Assembly (NCBI GenBank): GCA_937924755.1
Contig: CALEVZ010000019.1
Span: 1-34,170, forward strand
Direction: 5' to 3'
DNA length: 34,170 nucleotides
DNA from: an uncultured bacterium
Lineage (GTDB): Bacteria; Acidobacteriota; Thermoanaerobaculia; Thermoanaerobaculales; Thermoanaerobaculaceae
Below the pieces are notes generated by a model, which was given only the letters and a program-made list of their open reading frames with translations, was not told the DNA's origin and searched no databases. The position numbers and the translations under genes were made by a program. This document shows positions 13,495 to 19,658 of this stretch, piece by piece (within the stretch, counting starts at the first letter, position 1; every line of letters begins with the position of its first letter).

Positions 13495-15595
13495 TCCGTC
13501 GGCCGCGTGGGCCGCCGAGGTGCTTGCGGTGCACGGGCCCAGAGGCCCGGCCGAGCAGCTGCAGGCCTGGATCGAGTCGCCCGACGCCCCCTTCGCCGCC
13601 CTTCCCACGCACCAGGGCCAGGACGGCCGCTGGCGGCTGGAGCCGGGCGACACCGCCGGCCGCCCCCCGCACTCTCTCTGGCTGCGCGGGAAAGGGACCG
13701 CCTTTGCGGTCACCCCCTGGCCGCCGCCCGCACGCGTCGAGCTGCCGCCCCCCGGCACCCTGCAGCTGACTCTGACCACCCCCGACCCCGACCACCCCTT
13801 GCCCGCCACCCTTACGGTGCGCCTGTCCTGGACAGCCTCCCCCGGCGCTTCGCCGCGGGAGGTCCCGAGCTCCGCGTTCGACGTGCAATGGACGGCCGCC
13901 AGCGGCTCGCTGCGTTTGGAGGGCCTCCCCTTCGGCCCCGATCAGCGCTTCGATGTGGAGCTCGCAAGCCCCGGCCACGCCGCCGTGCAGCTCGCGCAGG
14001 TGGACCTGTGGACCCCGGAGCGCTGTCTGGGGAAGGTGGCGCTCCCCCCGGCGGGGCGGGTGTGCGGGACGGTGGACATCCCCGACGGGGTGGCCGAGCA
14101 GGAAGACGTGGAGATCCAGCTGACCTGGGGAGAGCAGCGGCGGCGGGTGCGCCCGGCGCACGGCGGGGGTTTTTGTTTTGCCGGAGCACCGCTGGCGGTG
14201 CTGGCGACGGTGCAGGCGGCCAGCCGCTTTCGCACCGGCGCCCCGGTCGAGGTGCGCGTGCCCGCCGAAAACGTCTCGCTCGCGCTGCCGCCGCTTGACA
14301 TCCTGGCCGGGGAGGTGATGACGGCGGACGGCCGCGCCGTGGAAGACTGCCAGGTGAGCATCGTCCCGGATCCGGGCACGGCGCCGCCCCCGCAGCTCGC
14401 CGAGCGGCTCGCATCCCTGGCCATGCAGGTGTCGTGCGCAGGGGGGAGGTTCCACACCCCGCGACCGTGGCCGCTCACGGCGCTGCTGCTGGAGGTGACC
14501 GCCCCGCCGCACCCGCCGCGGCGTCTGCACCTCGGCGAGGAAGAATCGGGCGAGGGGCTCAAGGTGGTGCTGGCAACGGGGCAGCGAGTCGAGGGCCGGG
14601 TGCGCGACGGTGAGCGCGGCGGACCCGTGGCGCACGCCAAGGTCACCCTCGCCTGTCCGGGCGGCGCGCCGGTCGCGGGCACGAGCGACGAGGAGGGGAG
14701 GTTCACGCTCACCGGCGTCGGCCCGGCCGGTCGCTGCGAGGGCCGGGTGGAGCACGCGCTGTTCCCGCCGGTGCGGGAAGCCGTCGCGGTGGCGACCGCG
14801 GAGGCGACCCTTTGGGAGGTCCGTCTCTACCCCGGCGTGCAGGTGAGCGGCGTCACCCTCGCCGCCCCCGAAGGCGAACCGGTGGCAGGAGCGCTGGTGC
14901 GGTTCGCGGGACCGGATGGGGCCCATGTGACGACCACCAGCGATCGGCACGGGCGCTTCCGCTCCGACCCCCTCGCCGCCGGGGTGTGGGGGGTTTTGGT
15001 GGAGCACGAGGGGCGGATCGCGGCCGCGGCGGAACTGGCCGTTGCGCCTCCCGCGCAGCCGCCGCCCCTCACCCTGTGGCTGGAGATGGGCGTGGAGGTG
15101 CTGGGCACGGTGGAGGGACTCACCCCGCCGGGGGTGGGCGCGGTGGTGACCCTCGGCGGCGAGGGAGCCCGCCGCAGCCGCACCACCACCGGTTACGGCG
15201 GCGTGTTCCGGGCGCGCGGCGTGGCCGCCGGGTGGACCCGCTTCACGGTGCGGCACGCCTCGCTGGCCGCCCCGTGCGCCGGAAAGGTGTGGATTCCCCC
15301 TCTCTCCCCGCCGCCCGTGACGCTGTCCTGCGCGCCCCCTTCGGTCAGCCTGCAGGTGGATCTGCGGGATGCCGGCGGCCGACCGGCGGCGGCGGCGCTG
15401 TTGGTGGTGGGCGTGGACGGTGACACCCGCACCTACCTGTGCGAGGTGGACACCGACGGGACGTGTCGGATCAGCCTGATCCCGGGCACCTACCGCGTCC
15501 TGCTCGGCCGGGGCGGGGCGGTGGAGCAGCTCTGGCAGGGGCCCGTGCTCGCCGACCGGCGGCTCGAGCTCGCCCTGCCGCCGGCGGCGCCGTGA
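13457..15595 (+). CDS. Secreted protein with carboxypeptidase-regulatory-like domains, 712 aa
   Basis: A short signal peptide (MRWLLVLSLAAADPSAAWAA, cleavage near residue 20) precedes a long beta-rich extracytoplasmic protein. At least three units of the carboxypeptidase-regulatory/CnaB-like type are seen at about residues 375-440, 460-530 and 546-600, each with the GxVxG...PVAGAxVxxxG...TxxxGxFxxxGV pattern (for example TSDEEGRFTLTGV and TTSDRHGRFRS). More than ten cysteines are spread along the chain (ERCLGK, GRVCGTV, LACPGG, AGRCEGR, TYLCEVD, GTCRIS), suggesting disulfides. It may be a surface or adhesive protein; the function is not known. ATG 13457 lies within the ATPase gene, so it is the last member of the operon. 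Confidence 0.78.
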   Translation: MRWLLVLSLAAADPSAAWAAEVLAVHGPRGPAEQLQAWIESPDAPFAALPTHQGQDGRWRLEPGDTAGRPPHSLWLRGKGTAFAVTPWPPPARVELPPPGTLQLTLTTPDPDHPLPATLTVRLSWTASPGASPREVPSSAFDVQWTAASGSLRLEGLPFGPDQRFDVELASPGHAAVQLAQVDLWTPERCLGKVALPPAGRVCGTVDIPDGVAEQEDVEIQLTWGEQRRRVRPAHGGGFCFAGAPLAVLATVQAASRFRTGAPVEVRVPAENVSLALPPLDILAGEVMTADGRAVEDCQVSIVPDPGTAPPPQLAERLASLAMQVSCAGGRFHTPRPWPLTALLLEVTAPPHPPRRLHLGEEESGEGLKVVLATGQRVEGRVRDGERGGPVAHAKVTLACPGGAPVAGTSDEEGRFTLTGVGPAGRCEGRVEHALFPPVREAVAVATAEATLWEVRLYPGVQVSGVTLAAPEGEPVAGALVRFAGPDGAHVTTTSDRHGRFRSDPLAAGVWGVLVEHEGRIAAAAELAVAPPAQPPPLTLWLEMGVEVLGTVEGLTPPGVGAVVTLGGEGARRSRTTTGYGGVFRARGVAAGWTRFTVRHASLAAPCAGKVWIPPLSPPPVTLSCAPPSVSLQVDLRDAGGRPAAAALLVVGVDGDTRTYLCEVDTDGTCRISLIPGTYRVLLGRGGAVEQLWQGPVLADRRLELALPPAAP

Positions 15596-15621
15596 GGCGC
15601 GCCCCAGCGGTCGTATTGTGG

Positions 15622-15640
15622 TAGCATCACGTTGGATGCT
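15622..15640 (+). promoter_or_regulatory. -10 TAGCAT overlapped by inverted repeat, before DUF465 gene
   Basis: TAGCAT (15622-15627) could be the -10 for the phospholipid operon. AGCATC (15623-15628) and GATGCT (15635-15640) form a perfect six-base inverted repeat across it and the likely transcription start. No good -35 is visible. Confidence 0.35.
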
Positions 15641-15661
15641 CGAAACCCCAAGGAGGTGCCC

Positions 15662-15880
15662 ATGACGTCGACCGCCGACAGGAGGGAGCAGCACGCTGCA
15701 ACGGAGCCGGAGCTGCAGCGGCTCTTCGAGGAGCACCAGGCGCGCGAGCGCCGCCTTGAAGAGCTCAAGGCGAAGGGTTGGCTGACCCTCGAAGAGGAAC
15801 AGGAAGTGAAGCGCTTGAAAAAGGAGAAACTCCAACTTAAGGATCGCATGGAGAGCTTCCGCCGCGCCCAATCGCAGTGA
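15662..15880 (+). CDS. YdcH-like DUF465 small coiled-coil protein, 72 aa
   Basis: This is a small, highly charged helical protein that fits the DUF465/YdcH family: the EEHQARERRLEELK segment is followed by the typical KRLKKEKLQLKDRMESF ending. The function of the family is not established. The ATG at 15662 has a near-perfect AAGGAGG at 15650-15656. A TTG ten codons earlier is in frame but lies upstream of that site. Its stop overlaps the psd start (GTGA), so it leads a phospholipid operon. Confidence 0.85.
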   Translation: MTSTADRREQHAATEPELQRLFEEHQARERRLEELKAKGWLTLEEEQEVKRLKKEKLQLKDRMESFRRAQSQ

Positions 15881-16524
15881 AGGACCCTCTCCTCCCCTTT
15901 GCCCCCGAAGGCTACCCCTTCGTGCTGGTCCCCACTGTGGCCGGGCTGCTGGCCTGGCTGTTCGGCTACCCCGCCATCGCCATCGCCGCCTGGGCAATCG
16001 CCGTCTTTTGCGTCGGCTTCTTTCGCAACCCGCCGCGCCATTCGGATGCCCCGGACAGCGCCATCCTGGCCCCCGCCGACGGCAAGGTGATTGCCGTCAC
16101 CAGCGCCCCACCGGCCCTGGTCGCGGCGGGGCTGCCCCAACAGATTTCCATCTTCATGTCGCCATTGAACGTCCACGTCAACCGCGCGCCCATCTCCGGG
16201 CGGGTGGCCGAGGCCCGCTGGTCGCCGGGGGCCAAGCTGCCGGCGTTCCGCGACAAGGCTTCGGACCTCAACGAACACGCCTTCGTCCGCCTGGAAGGGA
16301 AGCTGGGGAACGTGGCTTACAAGCAGATCGCCGGGTCGGTGGCGCGCCGGGTAGTGTGCGACCTCACAAACGGTGGGGAGGTAGAGCGCGGGCAGAGGGT
16401 GGGCATCATCAAGTTTTCGTCTCGAGTCGATCTCTTCTTGCCCGCCGGGGCTCGAATTGAGGTGGGGGTGAACCAGCGATGCCGGGCCGGCGTGACGGTG
16501 GTGGCACACTTCCCGCGGCCATGA
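15877..16524 (+). CDS. psd: Phosphatidylserine decarboxylase, short type, 215 aa
   Basis: The enzyme converts phosphatidylserine to phosphatidylethanolamine and uses a pyruvoyl group formed by self-cleavage. Family features seen are the N-terminal membrane segment, FFRNPPR (about 48-54), LAPADGKV, IFMSPLNVHVNRAP and the C-terminal IKFSSRVDLFLP. In the short family the cleavage site usually reads F-G-S-R; here it is F180-S181-S182-R, so the Gly before the cleaved Ser is replaced by Ser. The following gene makes its substrate, and the two overlap by ATGA. The GTG start at 15877 overlaps the DUF465 stop. Confidence 0.92.
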   Translation: MKDPLLPFAPEGYPFVLVPTVAGLLAWLFGYPAIAIAAWAIAVFCVGFFRNPPRHSDAPDSAILAPADGKVIAVTSAPPALVAAGLPQQISIFMSPLNVHVNRAPISGRVAEARWSPGAKLPAFRDKASDLNEHAFVRLEGKLGNVAYKQIAGSVARRVVCDLTNGGEVERGQRVGIIKFSSRVDLFLPAGARIEVGVNQRCRAGVTVVAHFPRP

Positions 16525-17330
16525 TCGCGCCGCGCGCCTACCGCTTCCGCCGCCCGCCCCGCCCCCGGGCCGAGTCGCTGCGGCGCGGTATCTATATCAT
16601 TCCCACCCTGTTCACCGTCGGCAACATGCTGGCCGGGTTCACGTCGATCCTCTTCTCGCTCAACGGCCGCATTGAAACCGCCGCCTGGCTGATCCTGCTG
16701 GCCGGCGTGCTGGATGGCCTGGACGGCCGGGTGGCGCGCCTGGCCAAGGTGACCTCCGAATTTGGCAAGGAGTACGACTCCCTCGCCGACGTCGTGAGTT
16801 TCGGCGTCGCGCCGGCGGTGCTCGTCTACCAGTGGGGGCTGTGGGGCATGGGGCGGTGGGGGTGGATGGCGGGCTTCCTCTTCCTGGTGGCCGGCTCGGT
16901 GCGGCTGGCACGCTTCAACGTGAAATCGGCCCTGGAGGACTCCTCGCGTTTCACCGGCCTGCCCATCCCCGGGGGCGCCGGCGCTCTCACCATGATGGTT
17001 CTCGTCGCCCCGGAGCCGGTGGTCAACCGACCAATGACCATTGCCGTGTGGGCCTTCGTCCTCACCGTCTCCTTTCTCATGGTGTCGACCATTCCCTACC
17101 GCTCTTACAAGGACTTGAACCTGCGCCGCCGCTTCCCGGCCACCGCCTTCTTCCTCATGGCGCTGGTGCTGGCGGTGATCGCCGTGTGGCCGGTGCCAAC
17201 CCTGGCAGTCCTGGCGGTGGTGTACCTGCTGTCGGGCCCCATCGAAAGCATACGCCGGTGCCGCCGCCGGAGTGTCGCGCCGTCCCTGAAGGAGACTCCC
17301 AGTGCAGACCCAGACGCTGAGCATCCTTGA
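16521..17330 (+). CDS. pssA: CDP-diacylglycerol-serine O-phosphatidyltransferase, 269 aa
   Basis: This integral membrane enzyme makes phosphatidylserine from CDP-diacylglycerol and serine, the step before Psd. The CDP-alcohol phosphotransferase motif is complete: D68-G69-x2-A72-R73-x8-G82-x3-D86-x3-D90. SFGVAPA and GLPIPGGAG segments typical of bacterial type II PssA follow. About seven hydrophobic segments are present. ATG 16521 overlaps the psd stop (ATGA); an upstream in-frame start at 16479 lies within psd and adds residues without family support. The 3' end overlaps the next gene by 29 bases. Confidence 0.93.
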   Translation: MIAPRAYRFRRPPRPRAESLRRGIYIIPTLFTVGNMLAGFTSILFSLNGRIETAAWLILLAGVLDGLDGRVARLAKVTSEFGKEYDSLADVVSFGVAPAVLVYQWGLWGMGRWGWMAGFLFLVAGSVRLARFNVKSALEDSSRFTGLPIPGGAGALTMMVLVAPEPVVNRPMTIAVWAFVLTVSFLMVSTIPYRSYKDLNLRRRFPATAFFLMALVLAVIAVWPVPTLAVLAVVYLLSGPIESIRRCRRRSVAPSLKETPSADPDAEHP

Positions 17331-18261
17331 CCCCACCTCCCTGCTCGGCCGGGAGATCATCGACGGTCTCGCCGCCGAGTTCCCCGATCTGCGCTGGCGT
17401 CTCTTTCACACCACCGGTGTCGACGAGCACCTCATCACCGAGATTGGCAGTCAACCCAGCGTCGTGGCTCCCTTGGAGGCCCTCGACGAGTTGACCGGCA
17501 GCGCCGCGGTGATCGTTTGCCGCCCCATCGATCCCCCGCGCGTTACCCTCCTGCTCGACTGGCTGACGCGACATCCCGAGGTAGCGTTGGTGGACGCCAG
17601 CCAGCCCGGCATCGCCGGCGATCGGGCGCTCACCGTCCTGGACCGCGCCCCGCGCCGCCGGGGCCAGCCCCGCTGGTACCACCTGCTCGACCCCGCCCTG
17701 GCCGGCCCCGTACGCCTGCTCCAGGCGCTGGCCTCGCTCCGCCCAGCGCGCGCCCACATCACCGTGTTTCGCTCCGCTTCCGGCTTCGGCAGCGGCGCCG
17801 TGGAGGAGCTGGCCGTGCAGGCGGCTGCTCGACTGTCCGGCCAGGCGCCCGCCTCACCGCGCCTGCTGCCGGCGGTGCTCGCCTTCGACTTGGCTCCGGC
17901 CCACAGCAACGTGCACGAACAACTCGCCCGTCAGACCGCCGACGTGCTGCCCGGCGTCGAGCTCCACCTACAGGCGGTGGAAACGGGGGTTTTCTTCGGC
18001 CACGCTGCCTCCTTCTTCGTCACCCTGCACGAGGCGGTCGGGGAACGGCGAGTGCGCGCCGCCCTGCGGGACGCCGGCATACGTCTCGCCCGCAGTTCTC
18101 AGTCGGTACGTCCCTCCGATCTCGTCGATGACGACGCCGCCACCTGCGCTCATCTCCGCGTCGCCGACACCGCCGTGCGCGGCTGGTTAGCGGCCGACGG
18201 CCTGCGCCTCGCCGGCGCCGCCGCCGTGGTCCGCATCACCACCGATGCCATGTCGTTCTAA
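17302..18261 (+). CDS. Degenerate aspartate-semialdehyde dehydrogenase homologue, 319 aa
   Basis: The overall layout follows aspartate-semialdehyde dehydrogenase (USG-1/Asd family): a Rossmann-like N-terminus, then VFRSASGFGSGAVEEL, which matches the T/S-x-QxxSGaGxxgxxEL region, and AFDLAPAHSN in place of the AFN..P segment. The catalytic N-P-N-C motif is replaced by D130-P131-A132-L133, so the nucleophilic cysteine is lost. The N-terminal glycine loop for NADP is also missing (DPTSLLGREI). It is therefore unlikely to be an active dehydrogenase. The reading frame is long and intact, which suggests a retained structural or regulatory role. The GTG at 17302 has GGAG upstream (GAAGGAGACTCCCA) and overlaps pssA. 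It is the last gene of the phospholipid operon. Confidence 0.75.
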   Translation: MQTQTLSILDPTSLLGREIIDGLAAEFPDLRWRLFHTTGVDEHLITEIGSQPSVVAPLEALDELTGSAAVIVCRPIDPPRVTLLLDWLTRHPEVALVDASQPGIAGDRALTVLDRAPRRRGQPRWYHLLDPALAGPVRLLQALASLRPARAHITVFRSASGFGSGAVEELAVQAAARLSGQAPASPRLLPAVLAFDLAPAHSNVHEQLARQTADVLPGVELHLQAVETGVFFGHAASFFVTLHEAVGERRVRAALRDAGIRLARSSQSVRPSDLVDDDAATCAHLRVADTAVRGWLAADGLRLAGAAAVVRITTDAMSF

Positions 18262-18295
18262 AGCGACCTCGTACGGGGTGACCGCCGACGTCGTG

Positions 18296-19645
18296 TCAGG
18301 GCCCTAACAGGCGCACCTCCTGGGTGCGAGCCGAGCCGTCGCCCTGACGAATCGACACTCGGGCAAAGACCTTTTGAGGTCGAGCGGCAAATCGAACGCG
18401 CCCCCCACCCAGGCGCGCCTCGGGCCCCAGGTAGGTGAGGAACAGGCGCACAGCGTTGGCGTTTCCAGGTACCGTTGGGGTCCAGCTCTCGCCCACCAGC
18501 CGGCCGAATTCGTAACCGCTGAAGTCGCCCGCGTCCGCGTCCGCCATCTGGCCGCCGGAAAAGCGTAGCTCCACCCAGTTGGCGGTGGTGGCCACGGCGC
18601 TGGCGTGGGGCGAATCGTTGATCACCGACACCTCGAGGTGGGAGCCGCTCCAGCTCCCGTACACCAGTGGGCGAGGGTTCGGCACACCGCCCCTGAAATA
18701 GTCGACGAAGGCTTCGAAACTCATACCCAGCGTGGGGGAGGGGCGCGGCAGGCCCACCGTATCCCAACCCACCAACCCCCCTCGCTGGGGCCGCAGGAGT
18801 AGCCGCAGGTCGCGGTGGTAGCGGCTGGTCTGGACTGCCTGCACGGTGACCGACGCGCCTGTGGGCAGCGTCGAGTTCCCCCACTCCACCGGGCGCTTGA
18901 GCACGAACTCGTCACCTCGCGCGCCGGGTCGATAGGTGGCCAAGCGCGAGCTGGCGAGGGAGGCGAGGGAAGCGCCACCTTTGGGATCCGGTTCGGCTAG
19001 CGGTCGCACCACGATGGCCGCTGTGAACGAACCTGCTCGCGCAGCCACGGCATCCAGGGATGCCAGATCGTCGTGAATGGTGGAGGGCGGCCACCCCAAC
19101 GCCTCGGGGTTGCCGAATACCACCGCCACCGGCAGCACCCCGGGCCACCCTTGCGCCGGCAGCCGCTCGGCCAGAACCGCGACCGGCAAGACCAGCTCCA
19201 CCCGTTCCCGGGCGCTCCTCGCCACCGCGGCGGCGAAACGTGGCAGGCCGGGGAAGAAGCGGCGCGCCGCCAGCACCAGGCTCGCCCCTCCCCCGGGCAA
19301 CCCACGACGCACCGGCGCCACCTGAGCGAGAAAGCTCTCGGCGTTCCCCGCCCCTTCGCCCTCTCCCTCCACCCACACCAGCCCGGCCACGCGCCACCCG
19401 GCGAGAGCATTGGCGGCCCCGATCTGGCCTAGCTCCAGATCGCTGCGGCGATCCGTCACCACCACCTTGCCCAGCGGCAGCACCAGGCCATCGACGCCCA
19501 GTCCTCGCGCCAGCGCCAAGCTCTCCGACGATGGCACTCCATCTAGCAGCCACACACGGTGGCTGAGGGCGCGGGGCTCCTGGGCCGCCGCCGCAGCGGC
19601 GAGCAGACCACCCAGAAGAAAAGTGGCAAGGACCCTCGCGCTCAC
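18296..19645 (-). CDS. Secreted protein of unknown function, 449 aa
   Basis: I do not recognise a family. A clear signal peptide (VLATFLLGGLLAAAAAAQEP) indicates export. The first half alternates beta strands and helices with phrases such as LARGLGVDGLVLPLGKV, WRVAGLVWVEGEG and GVLPVAVVFGNP, which could be a TIM-barrel-like domain. The second half is beta-rich (about residues 300-445), possibly a carbohydrate- or protein-binding sandwich. The GTG at 19645 is preferred over the ATG three codons upstream because TAGCAT lies seven bases before it, the leaderless arrangement seen elsewhere. It follows the kinase gene on the minus strand and converges with the Asd-like gene. Confidence 0.7.
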   Translation of the reverse strand: MSARVLATFLLGGLLAAAAAAQEPRALSHRVWLLDGVPSSESLALARGLGVDGLVLPLGKVVVTDRRSDLELGQIGAANALAGWRVAGLVWVEGEGEGAGNAESFLAQVAPVRRGLPGGGASLVLAARRFFPGLPRFAAAVARSARERVELVLPVAVLAERLPAQGWPGVLPVAVVFGNPEALGWPPSTIHDDLASLDAVAARAGSFTAAIVVRPLAEPDPKGGASLASLASSRLATYRPGARGDEFVLKRPVEWGNSTLPTGASVTVQAVQTSRYHRDLRLLLRPQRGGLVGWDTVGLPRPSPTLGMSFEAFVDYFRGGVPNPRPLVYGSWSGSHLEVSVINDSPHASAVATTANWVELRFSGGQMADADAGDFSGYEFGRLVGESWTPTVPGNANAVRLFLTYLGPEARLGGGRVRFAARPQKVFARVSIRQGDGSARTQEVRLLGP

Positions 19646-19652
19646 CGCTGGC

Positions 19653-19658
19653 ATGCTA
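19653..19658 (-). promoter_or_regulatory. -10 hexamer TAGCAT, 7 bases before GTG 19645
   Basis: On the minus strand TAGCAT is followed by seven bases and GTG. It overlaps the alternative ATG at 19654, so that ATG would probably not be in the transcript. The -35 is unclear. Confidence 0.4.

Follow-up and report, generated by a model that had tools for sequence, protein, structure and literature searches.

A cysteine-less relative of aspartate-semialdehyde dehydrogenase encoded beside phosphatidylethanolamine synthesis genes in Acidobacteriota

Aspartate-semialdehyde dehydrogenase (Asd or ASADH, EC 1.2.1.11) is the enzyme to which the protein considered here, hereafter X, is most readily compared. 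The two are alike in whole-length fold and in the dimerisation domain PF02774, but X lacks the cysteine of the NPNC/GGNC motif and the substrate arginine, has an altered NADP loop and is encoded in another operon. A second described relative is USG-1 (E. coli b2319; structure 2hjs), which, like X, combines the ASADH fold with the absence of a cysteine at the catalytic column (51 rows aligned). Unlike X, which has lost loop glycines, USG-1 keeps all three in 50 of the 51 rows (GATGxVG), and the P-H-P and F-H motifs of most X rows are a further difference. USG-1 genes also lie near truA or asd, whereas X genes are found with psd-pssA: the neighbours of E. coli usg are pdxB, truA and dedA, and truA is present at 48 of 50 Pseudomonadaceae USG loci, none of which has psd or pssA. 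In Salmonella, usg is annotated as a putative Asd and has been linked to intracellular survival, according to the part of the source available (PMC6358828). The literature seen, itself available in part, gave no biochemical function for USG-1, and among the papers listed by searches on Asd or USG-1 with phospholipid synthesis and on phosphatidylethanolamine synthesis in Acidobacteriota, none describes X or its linkage to pssA.

The X gene and its neighbours

The window, that is, the whole 34,170-nucleotide stretch of DNA analysed, belongs to a 3.35 Mb acidobacterial genome (G000) that is 96.9% complete. The initial annotation had described an intact X frame overlapping pssA, which in turn overlaps psd, and all three statements hold (Table 1). 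The longest pssA frame opens at ATG 16479; however, ATG 16521 is the likelier start because it and the psd stop overlap as ATGA. The Pfam match of PssA in the window search is CDP-OH_P_transf. X adjoins neither truA nor asd: psd and pssA precede it, and a long frame on the other strand follows. A promoter and terminator scan of positions 15400-18600 gave no promoter-like site and one terminator-like site, against 1.7 expected. The DUF465 gene ahead of psd is possibly an earlier member of the psd-pssA-X operon.

Table 1. Features of the psd-pssA-X region of the window.
Feature	Position	Strand	Basis
Small DUF465 protein, end overlapping psd start	15632-15880	+	DUF465
psd, phosphatidylserine decarboxylase	15877..16524	+	PF02666 (PS_Dcarbxylase), 128.6 bits
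pssA, CDP-diacylglycerol-serine O-phosphatidyltransferase	16521..17330	+	TIGR00473, 143.2 bits (cut-off 107)
Shine-Dalgarno-like AGGAG within pssA coding region, 7 nt 5′ of the X GTG	17290..17294	+	Sequence reading
X, Cys-less protein of predicted ASADH fold, 319 aa, GTG start	17302..18261	+	ORF list, Pfam, predicted structure
Overlap of X start and pssA end, 29 nt	17302..17330	+	ORF coordinates
NADP glycine-loop place, X codons 10-16 (D-P-T-S-L-L-G)	17329..17349	+	Alignment; GxxGxxG expected there
NPNC-aligned codons 128-131 (L-L-D-P) of X	17683..17694	+	Alignment; Pro131 at the nucleophile Cys place
Long ORF 3′ of X	18296-19654	opposite	No Pfam match above cut-off

Predicted fold and altered active site

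Its family matches would most probably lead X to be annotated as aspartate-semialdehyde dehydrogenase. Its score against PF02774 is weak but above the curated cut-off (27.4 bits against 26), while the NCBIfam Asd models give at most 30.7 bits with cut-offs of 223 and more, so that the curated score for Asd is not reached. An AlphaFold2 model built with 31 sequences (pLDDT 79, pTM 0.76; residues 108-118 below 50) matches 2hjs, the Pseudomonas aeruginosa USG-1 homologue, with Z 29.1 and rmsd 2.9 over 306 of 319 residues at 17% identity, tied with Vibrio cholerae ASADH II (2r00, Z 28.3). Foldseek ranks 2r00 top (E 2.3e-19), and a profile of the X family run against the PDB places 2hjs first (197 bits) and the V. 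cholerae ASADH 2qz9 next (192 bits). The model thus predicts a complete two-domain ASADH fold, and its whole-length match bears out the recognisable Asd-family fold that had been claimed for X.

To compare active sites, 118 distinct cysteine-less loci of Acidobacteriota were aligned with 51 USG rows and 71 rows of true Asds, 69 of which are distinct. All 71 true-Asd rows have the catalytic cysteine (NPNC/GGNC); at the same column, the X family has proline in 107 rows, alanine in eight, serine in two, tryptophan in one and cysteine in none. In the window protein, NPNC aligns with L128-L129-D130-P131, which puts Pro131 at the nucleophile place. The loss of the catalytic cysteine reported by the initial annotation therefore stands, but its reading of the motif as DPAL does not, the alignment placing the NPNC site two residues upstream. 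R157 occupies the catalytic glutamine column and E227 the substrate arginine column, where only 10 of the 118 family rows have arginine, while H234 aligns with the acid/base His274, a histidine kept in 68 of the 118. We take the residue roles from E. coli, in which R267 is the substrate-binding arginine and H274 the acid/base histidine. The NADP glycine loop, said to be lost, is so for its first two glycines (D10 and S13) but not for the third (G16). Of the 118 family rows, 45 have the first, no more than a few the second, and 102 the third; those that retain the first and third may bind NAD(P).

A catalytic cysteine displaced to another place was sought in the alignment and none was found, in keeping with the claim that the enzyme is dead. 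The window protein has just two cysteines, C73 and C282; both fall outside the catalytic column, and they occur in 46 and 11 of the 118 family rows, respectively. From its aligned residues, X cannot perform the thiol and hydride chemistry of ASADH. The replacements are themselves conserved: proline at the cysteine column in 91% of rows, histidine one column earlier in 84 of 118, proline at column 158 in 97% and histidine at column 232 in 92% (n = 118). Most family rows thus read P-H-P at the NPNC place, P-x-S for A-x-S after the glutamine column and F-H before G-H. The window protein departs from these motifs at columns 130 (D), 158 (S) and 232 (F).

Distribution, descent and operon linkage

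In the phylum-wide search, in which the best five candidates per genome were scored, so that absences are less sure than presences, profile A3 matches at E ≤ 1e-3 in 255 of 395 genomes. Ninety-four of these were set aside by hand (E > 1e-20, true Asds among them), leaving 161 of 395 genomes bearing X, at least five of which are doubtful; judged by loci L228 and L229, the matches in G080, G100, G242, G250 and G315 may be true bacterial-type Asds. True Asds of the relatives score about 14-34 bits with A3. Membership by A3 score alone was rejected as a rule, since the true Asds L227, L228 and L229, which have NPNC, score 173-190 bits; they were dropped for their cysteine before counting, which reduced 121 distinct loci to 118. 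Such bacterial-type Asds with NPNC occur in some Acidobacteriota families, and G078 carries one plus X. Among the matches listed (80 of 155), those outside Pseudomonadaceae come from Acidobacteriota (records titled Thermoanaerobaculia, gp7, gp11 and Acidobacteriaceae) and from one record titled Acidimicrobiia, the rest being Pseudomonadaceae USG-1 (one record titled Pantoea). The Acidimicrobiia record (VFZK01000065.1, L065) has psd-pssA-X, and its tree-nearest X is that of a gp11 acidobacterium (L064); it would represent a mislabelled bin, contamination or transfer.

Descent was traced in a tree of 88 rows, seven of them USG, obtained by a quick search without bootstrap and containing several long branches, with Pseudomonadaceae and E. 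coli as the sampling outside Acidobacteriota. The Acidobacteriota X family forms one clade (SH-aLRT 100) outside the USG clade (seven rows, 91); the two share a joint branch (97), and true bacterial-type Asds fall outside it. Among the rows sampled, the X family is placed as sister to USG-1, and X appears on this evidence to be an old lineage of the ASADH fold that lacks the cysteine and occurs in much of the phylum. It is under purifying selection, with dN/dS of 0.09-0.33 in the 30 closest of 49 pairs. Over 82 loci, mean identity is 26.5% for X, 41.3% for PssA and 42.6% for Psd.

The linkage with psd-pssA was surveyed in the 118 loci, which were picked by the presence of X and not by linkage. 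Of the 116 loci with 900 nt or more of preceding sequence, 99 have a same-strand pssA as the immediate upstream gene; of the 70 with 1700 nt or more, 59 have pssA and 50 have both psd and pssA. In 67 of 100 loci, the probable X start falls in an overlap with the pssA stop, the median spacing being -4 nt. The arrangement is thus conserved in relatives, and its absence from them is not borne out. The 17 unlinked loci of the 116 comprise three of family f2 (L023, L026 and L032) with about 1.4-1.5 kb upstream, two with more upstream sequence than these (L037 and L062) and twelve from families f45, f49, f54, f60, f68 and f78. A special co-evolution of X with PssA, sought by distance correlation, was not found (partial r 0.29, versus 0.42 for X and Psd).

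PssA also occurs without X. Thirteen genomes of genus g21, of the same class as the window, have PssA above cut-off and no X match. Two of their regions were read for a hidden X after pssA, and the family profile gave E 0.18 at best without filters; the proteins encoded there look like a thioredoxin reductase and the binding protein of a transporter. Another 20 pssA regions, mostly from genomes chosen for having no strong X match, comprise 11 with a psd-pssA pair without X, two with a linked X (L274 and the short, weak L271 of G037) and the rest with pssA without X. Such pairs in other Acidobacteriota match the window in both enzymes and in their order, but pssA is followed there by another gene or by an opposite-strand gene. 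X is dispensable for PssA, given the g21 genomes and the 11 of 20 regions with psd-pssA alone.

The converse case, X without a recognisable PssA, is met in families f54, f68 and f78, where PssA was sought in 15 X-bearing genomes and no match was better than E 6.9e-7; one of the 15, G416, has an X match at 2.6e-15 only. In six of six loci read from this group, X lies beside an MsbA-like exporter and YicC. Because this group of families keeps X without recognisable PssA, X cannot be only a subunit of PssA. These genomes may lack phosphatidylethanolamine from the PssA route. More widely, an MsbA-like ABC exporter and YicC come after X in all eight loci of the unlinked clade outside f49, and YicC without the exporter does so in the three f49 loci with enough sequence. 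The full row psd-pssA-X-MsbA-YicC is present at L221 and L222 (f18) and at L243 (f62), and the 11 tree-placed loci among those twelve from f45, f49, f54, f60, f68 and f78 form one clade with L221 and L243 (SH-aLRT 95). Since L221, L222 and L243 keep the whole row, the unlinked clade most simply lost the front, psd-pssA, of a longer operon. Besides these three, the loci with X, MsbA-like exporter and YicC (an endoribonuclease family) in this order are L231, L236, L237, L238, L241, L244, L245 and L248; at L269, the exporter and YicC follow pssA and X is missing.

Possible roles of X

The initial annotation had presented X as a pseudoenzyme of lysine/threonine biosynthesis, and this tie does not hold. 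The second, intact asd whose search had been proposed is present in the window genome: its one other PF02774 protein (L001) is an Asd of the TIGR00978 type (391.6 bits, cut-off 301.2) that retains GATGVVG, NPNC, glutamine, arginine and histidine, and its gene adjoins that of aspartokinase. A single-sequence scan of genome contigs with the window X protein confirmed nothing. Among 59 relatives, TIGR01296 was tried as the test for true Asd and gave none above cut-off; TIGR00978 was used instead, and Asd of this type was found in 28. The window X protein is matched in 41 of the 59. Asd above the TIGR00978 cut-off occurs in 14 of these 41, G057 has an Asd of another type (L156; PF02774 140 bits, cysteine present), and the remaining 26 lack any further PF02774 match (E ≤ 0.001) and hence a recognisable true Asd. 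In 24 of these 26 there is no aspartokinase above cut-off either, and completeness is 95% or more for 10 of the 26; the relatives are draft genomes, in which a single absence of Asd proves little and the repeated pattern is what counts. X is therefore independent of the aspartate pathway, and in the tree its sister is the cysteine-less USG-1 group and not the Asd of its own genome. The Asd annotation is consequently unsafe for inferring lysine/threonine prototrophy, 26 of 41 X-bearing relatives having no recognisable Asd.

Nine relatives that are 95-100% complete (G003, G004, G006, G007, G017-G020 and G022) have neither recognisable Asd nor aspartokinase above cut-off, and for lack of such matches they seem likely to have lost the aspartate branch, which also supplies diaminopimelate. 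A role of X in linking homoserine supply to PssA was set aside, X being kept where asd and aspartokinase are gone. In the part of the source available, E. coli PssA is described as using homoserine too, about 270-fold less well than serine (PMC12221286).

Altogether, the ASADH fold, the lack of a nucleophile, the conserved replacements, purifying selection and the overlap with pssA in a lipid operon suggest that X could be non-catalytic and act in phospholipid and envelope synthesis as a regulator or scaffold, a reading that we prefer tentatively as the likeliest of those considered, though somewhat short of probable, and whose mechanism we infer. Because its gene overlaps pssA, translation of X would probably be coupled, with the psd-pssA mRNA as template. 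X would most likely work as a soluble dimer whose old substrate pocket takes up either a protein partner or a small ligand, for instance a nucleotide or an amino acid like serine; bound X would then adjust or organise the synthesis of phosphatidylserine and phosphatidylethanolamine. In one lineage, X would have stayed with the MsbA-like lipid exporter after psd-pssA left; any contact of X with PssA, with which linkage and gene overlap are seen, or with MsbA would be putative. Doubtful is a more specific version in which, ahead of the diversification of Acidobacteriota, the ASADH fold became a control of envelope lipid synthesis that senses a metabolite and sets PssA output or, where PssA is gone, serves the MsbA branch. 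X would then be the founder of an undescribed protein family, sensing in the old active-site pocket, which in most rows bears P-H-P and F-H.

The main rival of an accessory protein is a rebuilt active site, in which X would be a repurposed enzyme whose substrate is a lipid head group or a precursor and whose reaction needs no thiol intermediate. The replacements are conserved and not random (proline at the cysteine column and at column 158, histidine at column 232 and the two histidines kept in 84 and 68 of 118 rows), and purifying selection agrees with such a role. However, the window protein is without several of the motifs (D130, S158, F232) and its frame is still intact, conserved residues may equally serve folding or binding, and no chemistry can be named, so that we regard this explanation as rather unlikely. 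Somewhat less likely again is that X, like USG-1, acts generally in the envelope or in housekeeping, its adjacency to pssA being inherited operon order. It is kept without PssA in f54, f68 and f78 and adjoins YicC without the exporter in f49, the usg genes of E. coli and Pseudomonadaceae have the other neighbours given above, and no special co-evolution with PssA is seen. Against inherited order, the X-pssA junction has been held, with its overlap in 67 of 100 loci, despite divergence to 26.5% mean identity, and the gene after pssA varies in the X-less genomes read.

An active ASADH with a displaced nucleophile, which the complete predicted fold and the alignment of His234 with His274 would allow, is extremely improbable, since the cysteine, arginine, glutamine and two loop glycines are replaced (P131, E227, R157, D10 and S13), C73 and C282 are poorly conserved and lie off the active site in the alignment, and the window genome already has a normal Asd. 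Nor is X at all credible as a decaying pseudogene: it diverges faster than its neighbours and G037 has a short, weak copy, but the dN/dS values are low, and the matches listed have no internal stops save the fragmentary G055:C40 and G004:C195, from genomes that each also hold a full X copy.

A pseudoenzyme retained across the phylum points to a function hidden by annotation, and X is a candidate new component of phosphatidylethanolamine synthesis in Acidobacteriota. It also gives a comparative handle on USG-1, for which a solved structure, 2hjs, exists. In eight Pseudomonas USG-1 proteins (L080, L088, L091, L100, L108, L117, L119 and L124), a cysteine lies one column before the lost catalytic position.
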